From the NCBI RefSeq assembly GCF_031312535.1, contig NZ_CP133594.1, forward strand, positions 372,001 through 436,000: a stretch of DNA of 64,000 nucleotides, written 5' to 3'. The position numbers were made by a program, and so were the translations under genes. This document shows positions 60,791 through 63,929 of this stretch, one piece after another (the first letter of the stretch is position 1; each line of letters begins with the position of its first letter). This DNA is from Methanolobus mangrovi. Its GTDB lineage: Archaea; Halobacteriota; Methanosarcinia; Methanosarcinales; Methanosarcinaceae. Below the pieces are notes generated by a model that worked only from the letters and a program-made list of their open reading frames with translations, did no database searches and was not told where the DNA came from.

Positions 60791-61053
60791 ATACAATGTT
60801 ACTTGAATATTCACTTCTGTTCATGGTTATTGCAATTATACCATGCATGTACAGGATCATCAAAGGACCGACTATCCCTGACAGGGTTGTGGCCCTTGAT
60901 GCAATGACAACGGTAATTGTGGTGATGCTTGGTATCTACTCATTTGTAAAAGGGTCCGCTTTCTTCATGGATGTGGCACTTGTACTTGCCATCATATCCT
61001 TTGTGGGAACAGTCACAGTTGCAAAGTACCTTGATGAAGGGGTGGTATTTTGA
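60787..61053 (+). CDS. mrpF: Mrp antiporter subunit F
   Basis: 88 residues with three helices. RIIKGPTIPDRVVALDAMTT is the MrpF/MbhB signature with a conserved Asp in the second helix. Four-base overlaps on both sides. Confidence 0.93.
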   Translation: MNTMLLEYSLLFMVIAIIPCMYRIIKGPTIPDRVVALDAMTTVIVVMLGIYSFVKGSAFFMDVALVLAIISFVGTVTVAKYLDEGVVF

Positions 61054-61421
61054 GTACCGTTTCAATGGTTTTGGAAATGCTTAGCAATGTTGTCCTGGTA
61101 ATCGGATTATTCTTCGTGTTCCTTGCAATGCTAGGACTTGCCAGACTTCCTGATGTGTATAACAGGTTGCATGCAACTACAAAGATAGGAACTCTCGGTG
61201 CTTTTGGAGTTATGCTTAGTATACTACTGAAGGTGGGCTTTTCCCCTATAGGTGTTAAGGCAATTACAGTAGCTCTTTTCATCCTGGTGACTTCGCCCAT
61301 AGCAGCCCATATGATAAGCCGTGCAGCTCACCGACATGGAGTAGGTCTTTGTAAGGAATCTGTAATTGATGAATATGGAAAAGCATGTTCATCTGCATGC
61401 TCAATAAATGACAATGAGTGA
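61050..61421 (+). CDS. mrpG: Mrp antiporter subunit G
   Basis: 123 residues, three helices. LGLARLPDVYNRLHATTKIGTLG is the MrpG/MbhC hallmark. It starts TTG at 61050, overlapping the TGA of mrpF, with GGGGTGG upstream. A Cys-containing hydrophilic tail (CKESVIDEYGKACSSACS) extends past the core family length and is unusual. Confidence 0.91.
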   Translation: MSTVSMVLEMLSNVVLVIGLFFVFLAMLGLARLPDVYNRLHATTKIGTLGAFGVMLSILLKVGFSPIGVKAITVALFILVTSPIAAHMISRAAHRHGVGLCKESVIDEYGKACSSACSINDNE

Positions 61422-61432
61422 ATAATAGCAGC

Positions 61433-61463
61433 TTCTGGCGTAATGCCAGAACAATTCTTTTTT
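61433..61463 (+). terminator. Terminator of the mrp operon
   Basis: TTCTGGC (61433-61439) and GCCAGAA (61445-61451) form a perfect 7-bp stem with a GTAAT loop, followed by a T tract at 61455-61463. Confidence 0.8.
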
Positions 61464-61573: not shown

Positions 61574-61635
61574 GTGAGCGGGTTGGGGAGTGGGGGGTTA
61601 GTGTGGGAGTGGGGTTAAAAAATGTACCCGCTCAC
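61574..61635 (+). other. Hairpin enclosing a G-quadruplex motif
   Basis: GTGAGCGGGT (61574-61583) and ACCCGCTCAC (61626-61635) are perfect inverted repeats. Between them lie four G runs at 61585-61588, 61592-61597, 61605-61607 and 61611-61614, with loops of 3, 7 and 3 bases, fitting the canonical quadruplex pattern. The surrounding DNA is AT-rich. Confidence 0.75.
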
Positions 61636-61679
61636 AGCGTGACTAGATGAAATAATCATATATAAGTATTACCTTTTAC

Positions 61680-61886: not shown

Positions 61887-62939
61887 ATGAAAAAGAACAC
61901 AAAGGTATTCTACATAAGTGAAGAAGATCGGGAAGCTTCTATTGTGGAAGCAGCAAGAATTCTGAAAGAAGGTGGAACTGTTGCTTTCCCCACCGAGACT
62001 GTCTATGGACTTGGAGCTGATGCTCTCAATGAAAAAGCAGTACTGCAGATATTTGAAGCAAAAGGCAGACCGGCAGATAACCCACTTATAGTTCATGTGG
62101 ATTCAAAGGAAAGCTGTCTGAAACTTGTCAGGAGTATACCTGATAAAGCATCCCTCCTTATGGATAAATTCTGGCCGGGTCCATTGACTCTTATTATGGA
62201 AAGGAAGCCGATAGTTCCTGATGTAACAACAGGAGGTTTAGATACCGTAGCTGTCAGAATGCCTGAAAACCTGATCGCTCTGGAACTGATAAAACGTTCG
62301 GGAATACCTATAGCTGCACCAAGTGCTAACCTTTCAGGAAAACCAAGTCCTACAACTGCAGAACATGTTTTGTGTGACCTTTCCGGAAGGATAGATGCAC
62401 TTATAGATGGCGGGGAAGTTTCCATTGGACTTGAGTCGACGGTAGTTGATATGACCTCCGAGATCCCTGCGATATTAAGACCTGGTAAAATAAGCAAAGA
62501 AGAACTTGAAGAGTGCATAGGTGAGGTCAAAGTTGCTTATGATGACAAAGTGCATCCGGAAAGCGAGACCGTCCGTTCTCCGGGAATGAAATATACGCAT
62601 TATTCTCCGGAGTCAAGTGTTATCCTAGTTGAAGGAGAACATGAACATGTAGTTTCCAGGATAAAAGAGCTTATTGTTGATCTTAGTCTGAGGAATGCAA
62701 AAATAGGATTGTTGCTTACAGAAGAATCACATAATAATTTTTCAGAATATCTTTCATATTCCATGGGTAAGAAAGACAAACCTGAACAAGCTGCAAAGAA
62801 TTTATTTTTTGGACTTCGTTACCTCGATGAAAGAAACATAGATATAATAATAGTGGATGGTTCTTTTAGGCCGGATGGAATAGGAATGGCTGTTTTTAAC
62901 AGAATTCGCAAGGCTGCAGATATGATAATCAAAGTGTAG
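61887..62939 (+). CDS. tsaC: L-threonylcarbamoyladenylate synthase (Sua5 type)
   Basis: Makes threonylcarbamoyl-AMP for t6A37 of tRNA. 350 residues. The YrdC domain reads GGTVAFPTETVYGLGADALN, KGRPADNPLIVHV and SANLSGKPSPTTAEHV; GLESTVVDMTSE, then RPGKISKEELEE, complete it. The Sua5 domain follows after a linker with PGMKYTHYSP, and runs to the end. ATG 61887 fits the family. A small membrane protein is encoded 7 bases after its stop. Confidence 0.93.
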   Translation: MKKNTKVFYISEEDREASIVEAARILKEGGTVAFPTETVYGLGADALNEKAVLQIFEAKGRPADNPLIVHVDSKESCLKLVRSIPDKASLLMDKFWPGPLTLIMERKPIVPDVTTGGLDTVAVRMPENLIALELIKRSGIPIAAPSANLSGKPSPTTAEHVLCDLSGRIDALIDGGEVSIGLESTVVDMTSEIPAILRPGKISKEELEECIGEVKVAYDDKVHPESETVRSPGMKYTHYSPESSVILVEGEHEHVVSRIKELIVDLSLRNAKIGLLLTEESHNNFSEYLSYSMGKKDKPEQAAKNLFFGLRYLDERNIDIIIVDGSFRPDGIGMAVFNRIRKAADMIIKV

Positions 62940-63174: not shown

Positions 63175-63929
63175 TTTCGAAGTGTGCAGATTTTACTTAT
63201 AAGAACTACTAATCAATCCTTCTCAAAACAGTTTCTATAAGCTTTATTTTGTTTGGAAACCAAAAGGAGTATGGTGGTCGTAATTTGTCTCCGTATCCCC
63301 CGCTATTAAGGGAACATTTCGCTTTCGTACCACTACAGATACCACCAAACAAGCAAATAGAAGGAGATAGAGGCAGGGCTTTCTTAACCTGTCTCTTATA
63401 TTTATATCATTGTTTTTGCTATTTCAGGATTCTTTCAATTTAAAATATTTTTGATTTTGATTATATCTTTATTGCAGATATAGCAATTTCAACAATTCCA
63501 ATTTAATGATGAAAAAGCTCAATAATGAAGGGGAATACTCACTGTCCTGTAAAAATGAAAATATTCTAATCCTTAATAATTATCCATAATACAGTTTCCT
63601 CTCTATTTATTTCCTGTAAACGCAAATATATGGATTGTAATCATGATTTTGTCTCCATTTTTTATTGTATAAGGCATAGTCTGATTAAGAAATAGTATCA
63701 ACGTACCCCCACCGTACCACCATAAACGGAATCAGGGGAATAGATGGTCTATATGACCATTTATTTCCCACAATTCTTTTTTGATATGTTCTCTTTTTAT
63801 GTTTATATTTGCTCAGTATGTTTCTTTGTAAACAAATCGGAACCTATATATCTTCATAATTGAAAAACGGATATTAATTACTGAACAAATAGGCCGTTGT
63901 GCCTATAAAACCGTAACGGGGGTTACATA
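63175..63929. other. Long AT-rich intergenic region
   Basis: Nothing convincing was found in 755 bases: no tRNA, repeat array or coding pattern. The 64-codon frame at 63249-63443 has no ribosome site and no protein-like composition. TATA-like CCTATATAT near 63846 may be part of the promoter of the next gene. Confidence 0.4.

Follow-up and report, generated by a model that had tools for sequence, protein, structure and literature searches.

What does a G-rich stretch enclosed in a perfect inverted repeat do between an antiporter gene and tsaC, and which of its two strands matters? The window considered here, a 64 kb stretch of a 2.62-Mb single-contig genome (G000:C1:372001-436000), contains one such arrangement. 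A first-pass annotation had read it as a G-quadruplex (G4) motif held inside the repeat and had suggested an untranslated RNA, a replication or recombination element, or a regulator of tsaC. We analysed the locus and its relatives with respect to distribution, strand, structure and possible partners, and we propose that it is a minus-strand gene encoding a small non-coding RNA. Several redundant copies of it would exist, and its family is confined to a single archaeal class.

The hairpin locus and its neighbours

The arms GTGAGCGGGT (61574-61583) and ACCCGCTCAC (61626-61635) are perfectly complementary over 10 bp and enclose, on the G-rich strand, G runs of 4, 6, 3 and 4 with loops of 3, 7 and 3 at 61585-61614, so that the arms, positions, run lengths and loop lengths first described are all borne out. 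Neither strand of the window has another canonical G4 motif, and the hairpin is likewise the single one in the window that combines 10-bp perfect arms of at least 50% G+C with a loop of 20-60 nt. The joint occurrence of motif and arms had been called very unlikely by chance, and rightly so: dinucleotide shuffles of the window contained on average 0.22 G4 motifs, and a G4 enclosed by 10-bp arms appeared in 0/100 of them.

The RNA gene is intergenic. On one side lies mrpG (61050-61421, plus strand; PF03334), which encodes a Na+/H+ antiporter subunit and is followed by a terminator-like hairpin (61433-61451, plus strand); on the other side lies tsaC/sua5 (61887-62939, plus strand; PF01300 and PF03481). 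The Pfam matches agree with the gene identities assigned from the sequence, and the mrpG stop at 61421, the terminator-like hairpin and the tsaC start at 61887 reproduce the distances given for them. Read on the minus strand (61574-61635), the hairpin is convergent with mrpG and divergent from tsaC and comprises a 5′ arm (61626-61635), a loop (61584-61625) and a 3′ arm (61574-61583). A U-tract of six U (61617-61622) lies on the 5′ side of the loop, and the C-rich part CCCCACUCCCACACUAACCCCCCACUCCCC (61585-61614) is the complement of the four-run G4 motif. The minus-strand architecture is thus a 10-bp stem around an unpaired, almost G-free loop, in which the U-tract is followed by AACCCCACUCCC..CUAACCCCCACUCCCC.

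Distribution and placement of the copies

A DNA search found the element in 27/27 genomes of the genus, where about 60 nt are nearly identical between diverging flanks. In 26/27 congeners the best copy is a few hundred bases away from tsaC, and the copy in G016 is on another contig than tsaC. Alignment with MAFFT across all paralogue types misaligned the stems, and the first covariance model was thus built from 12 members with comparable loops. This 12-member model detected the RNA in 101/112 genomes of the family (E up to 0.01) and in 170/186 genomes of the order. Within the class, 220/238 genomes were positive (E up to 0.001), including 149/151 good-quality genomes and 36/39 genera. A wider model recovered five of the 15 negative genomes that were retested, which brings the class to 225/238; still negative with this model were 4/6 genomes of genus g6, both of g8, G186 (family f6) and three incomplete genomes.

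Of 393 genomes sampled across the phylum, 84 matched, all of them within the class, and about 309 genomes of other classes of the phylum gave 0 matches. An exact-pattern scan of named genomes returned Methanolobus, Methanosarcina, Methanomethylovorans, Methanohalophilus, Methanococcoides, Methanothrix, Ca. Methanoperedens and ANME-2 records, and from these named genera we take the class to be Methanosarcinia; the same scan also returned high-GC bacteria, with matches that look like chance. The exact 62-mer had no match in named genomes.

Genomes of the class carry 1 to 10 copies (three in G005, for example), some of them in tandem (L197, L207, L208, L217). In the genus, the copies differ in their stems: GTGAGCGGGT defines type A, beside tsaC, TTGCRCGGGTGG type B and ATGAGCGGGTT type C, and the window genome holds two further copies with TGCGGGGGA stems. 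Type A also lies between mrp genes and tsaC in a different genus (L150). Type B adjoins hppA in the genus and at loci of three other genera (L156, L157, L158, L162), and type C adjoins rfcL in the genus and at loci of several other genera, including two of another family (L205, L206). No family member was found in plasmids.

The RNA appears to have been lost in two small-genome genera, g6 and g8. Their genomes measure 1.3-1.8 Mb, we suspect that they represent reduced, host-associated lineages, and genes lost there along with the RNA could point to its targets.

On one contig of a virus collection (L437:2053-3512; IMGVR_UViG_3300037264_009246) we found a family member whose stem is of the Methanoperedens type and which has a TATA box. 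An integrase-like ORF, whose PF00589 match is weak and below the cut-off, ends 14 bp from the 3′ end of the RNA, and the RNA gene on this contig may be a provirus attachment site. As the main function of the element, replication or recombination found no support; this single contig hints at use as an integration site.

Strand and promoter

All copies were oriented to the C-rich strand before their promoters were compared. On that strand, most copies have a TATA box whose first base lies at -33 to -30 relative to the stem, and A or T occupies positions -30 to -26 in about 90-97% of the sequences, with A-rich bases preceding. TATA scores of at least 7 of 8 were reached by 90/101 sequences on the C-rich strand versus 28/101 on the other strand and 34/101 for shuffles, and the matches on the other strand neither clustered nor exceeded the frequency in shuffles. 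At the window locus, the TATA box CTTATATA (61659-61666, minus strand) lies 31 nt upstream of the stem and is preceded by A-rich, BRE-like bases (61667-61673), and covariance model R2 gives the minus strand 75.6 bits versus 21.9 bits for the plus strand.

Because of the TATA position and the strand scores of the model, the expected transcript is the C-rich strand, which would begin with the stem or slightly ahead of it, and transcription of the G-rich strand is very improbable. With its positioned TATA box and intergenic place, the locus shows one mark of a trans-acting archaeal sRNA, that of an independent intergenic gene with its own promoter. The untranslated RNA considered at first is therefore strongly supported as an RNA, with the correction that it would be read from the opposite strand, on which the loop is C-rich. 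That the minus-strand hairpin represents an RNA gene is, from this comparative evidence, a reading of which we are close to certain.

Upstream of the TATA box, many type C copies (e.g. L103, L105, L110, L197) contain a CATCATNATGATGA-like palindromic stretch, which could be a regulator site.

Stem and loop

Folded alone, the window RNA reaches -17.3 kcal/mol (z -6.1) with its loop fully open, and among eight members folded alone the stem formed in 8/8 and the loop was fully open in 7/8. In the stem alignment of 95 distinct members, which was fitted to the model so that its pairing counts lean towards structure, 94.0% of the stem cells are in standard pairs versus a mean of 85.2% after shuffling (0/500 as high), and 9/10 stem pairs show compensatory changes, with both sides changed in 99 cells. 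In slid controls, 31-55% of the stem cells were paired. Covariation of paralogous stems is also seen in a model-free search for pairing arms on either side of the core, a search that itself leans towards structure.

The hairpins measure about 47-95 nt and have a single stem. Across the 95 distinct members the loop is 27-71 nt long (median 36) and consists of 43% C, 29% A, 27% U and 1.5% G. At least four consecutive U occur in 94/95 loops, the U run precedes the C runs in 92, and CUCCC is present in 88/95 members. Because it is without G, such a loop is expected to stay open. Stem sequences change between copies and the loop core is constant; because changes in the stem are compensated and the loop core is kept, the loop is probably the part that meets a partner, and the same loop on varied stems is what would be expected if it meets one shared kind of partner. 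Taken from sequence comparison, an own archaeal promoter, a stem selected for pairing and an unpaired, almost G-free loop with a U-tract and then CCCCACUCCC-type units are strongly supported. In one member (L028:1101-1178; genome G026), an 18-nt tandem duplication in the loop has produced three CACUCCC units.

Two structural candidates were rejected. The loops, with 1.5% G, contain no conserved C or D box, there is one single stem, and no Rfam snoRNA match was obtained, which speaks against a C/D or H/ACA guide RNA. An intramolecular triplex had been considered because the loop segment CACUCCCC resembles a mirror of the 3′ arm, but the loop is unchanged when the stem changes, for example in members with GGGCAGG stems.

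Proposed mode of action and target searches

We consider it probable that the RNA acts in trans through its loop, for which a G-rich RNA site would be the most economical partner. The stem would protect both ends and hold the loop open, and the loop would most likely pair, via CUCCCC or CACUCCC, with G-rich ribosome-binding sites (GGGGAGUG, GGGAGU), which would lower the translation or alter the stability of the target mRNAs. An Lsm/SmAP-type protein may land on the U-tract; Lsm proteins gave no help to another M. mazei sRNA in vitro (PMC3510493). That ribosome-binding sites of mRNAs are the partner of the loop is a proposition to which we give slightly less than even odds. It leads by precedent rather than proof, the precedents being sRNA162 (PMC3510493) and sRNA41 and sRNA154 (PMC5867862), with a protein partner close behind. 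For the full proposal, a small RNA gene in redundant copies whose trans-acting loop pairs with ribosome-binding sites, we estimate a probability of roughly 0.45.

The 9-mer GGGGAGTGG occurs at 17 sites in the window genome versus 5 for its reverse. Five of the 17 are family loci, another serves a short lipoprotein-like gene as its ribosome-binding site (GGGGAGTGGGCTATG, a perfect 9-mer complement), and the other sites examined lie in or near coding frames. Partial loop complements were found in the start regions of a flavodoxin, an FrhB-type F420 oxidoreductase subunit and a pyridine nucleotide-disulphide oxidoreductase. Over 703 start regions (864 kb of the window genome), loop complements were no commoner than for shuffled loops. 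With block-shuffles, two of four settings gave a high ratio of start regions to gene interiors (1 and 2 of 150) and the other two did not, and the start-region counts themselves showed no excess. Across the genus, the pattern GGGGAGTG-N2-8-ATG was roughly twice as frequent as its reversed control, an excess that any purine-rich ribosome-binding site would give; the genus-wide search returned no start-region site in most congeners, and the sites listed are clade-specific. Complementarity of the loop core to 16S rRNA was no better than that of shuffles.

Alternative explanations

The same RNA could work through a protein instead, the C-rich loop and U-tract binding or titrating a single-strand RNA-binding protein as a decoy or scaffold. 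A loop core that is nearly invariant class-wide with no conserved RNA partner found, the openness of the loop, and the repeated units of some members, one of them arisen by the duplication in L028, all agree with this; however, the RNA is not known to have a protein partner, and the near-absence of G suits an antisense loop equally. We judge a protein partner unlikely, if the least so of the alternatives. A coding function, in the form of a short leaderless mRNA that starts at a stem GUG or AUG and yields a small peptide, draws on the AUG, GUG or UUG found at the first stem position in 68/95 distinct members. Of these 68, 44 have an in-frame stop inside the hairpin, the frame lengths are scattered from 3 to 30 codons, and the stem carries compensatory changes, which leaves a peptide very improbable.

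The remaining alternatives concern the DNA or the neighbouring genes. A plus-strand G-quadruplex, in DNA or RNA, was the feature that had drawn attention to the locus, and four canonically spaced G runs within a hairpin do exceed chance in the window. When the arrangement is sought in relatives, however, what persists class-wide is the stem pairing with the C-rich loop, and a canonical G4 is present in only 21/95 distinct members; in addition, the promoter is on the opposite strand and the model scores the C strand far higher. A functional quadruplex is thus just as improbable as a peptide, and the quadruplex at the hairpin is incidental. A cis element, either a terminator or a regulator of tsaC or mrp, would fit the proximity to tsaC in 26/27 congeners and is marginally less improbable than these two, at long odds nonetheless. 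Yet a terminator-like hairpin already follows mrpG, the RNA is divergent from tsaC and its promoter faces away from that gene, the G016 copy is separated from tsaC by contig, and most members elsewhere in the class have other genes as neighbours, with copies at hppA, rfcL and further places in other genera, so that the suggested regulation of tsaC finds no support. The lowest probability of all goes to a mobile REP- or MITE-like repeat. Several copies per genome and inverted-repeat ends would suit one, but the copies number only 1 to 10, keep their places across genera and families, each have a positioned TATA box, differ among paralogues in the stem with the loop common to all, and do not occur in plasmids. 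To judge by these features, the copies are stable genes, not a repeat.

Relation to known small RNAs

Rfam 15 gave no family match in the window above the gathering score, nor any at the locus when E values as high as 1 were allowed, and at 12 loci with other members it matched nothing but tRNA. A literature search, whose coverage excluded dRNA-seq supplementary tables and several key papers, found no description of the family. The dRNA-seq tables of M. mazei or M. psychrophilus may well contain transcripts from some copies already, and sRNA41 is itself a possible member.

An archaeal small RNA is a known kind of molecule; the class-wide family is the new part. Like sRNA162/171, sRNA154 and sRNA41 of M. 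mazei, the RNA proposed here is an intergenic archaeal sRNA with an unpaired region, which in theirs masks ribosome-binding sites (sRNA162, PMC3510493; sRNA41 and sRNA154, reviewed in PMC5867862). sRNA162 also has a homologous copy, sRNA171 (PMC3510493; PMC5867862). It is, however, a 191-nt RNA of three stem-loops whose known occurrence was limited to three Methanosarcina species (PMC3510493), whereas the C-rich hairpin family is about 50-90 nt long, has one stem and is class-wide. dRNA-seq of Methanolobus psychrophilus R15 revealed 195 sRNAs, of which nine were both cold-induced and highly conserved (PMC5378194), and the window genome probably belongs to that genus too.

Few archaeal small RNAs are known outside single genera. 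Here, sequence, structure and genome position are kept throughout a class that comprises methane producers and related ANME-2 archaea, typically with multiple copies, so that a central task is likely. We tentatively suggest, with somewhat less confidence than for the pairing proposal, an unrecognised class-wide RNA without a counterpart in RNA catalogues, whose redundant copies would display a conserved C-rich loop as a general, ancestral post-transcriptional regulator at the translational or protein level. Methanosarcina offers a genetic system in which the task of the RNA could be found.

Bacterial C-rich sRNAs of the RsaE type pair with Shine-Dalgarno sites through an unpaired UCCC-type motif; the sequence and structure of the archaeal RNA are unrelated to theirs, and its target step is putative. 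In design, the hairpin resembles the artificial paired-termini antisense RNAs that Nakashima et al. reportedly made in E. coli in 2006, in which a stem joins both ends and an antisense-type stretch is exposed in the loop. Unlike those man-made molecules, the C-rich hairpin RNA is natural and comes in several redundant copies; in it, nature would have used paired termini to present a G-free loop.

On the minus strand of the window, positions 63290-63360 hold another conserved element, GGTGGTAYTTG..GTGGTA..GACCACCA, which ten other loci of the genus also have near the small ORF that follows tsaC.
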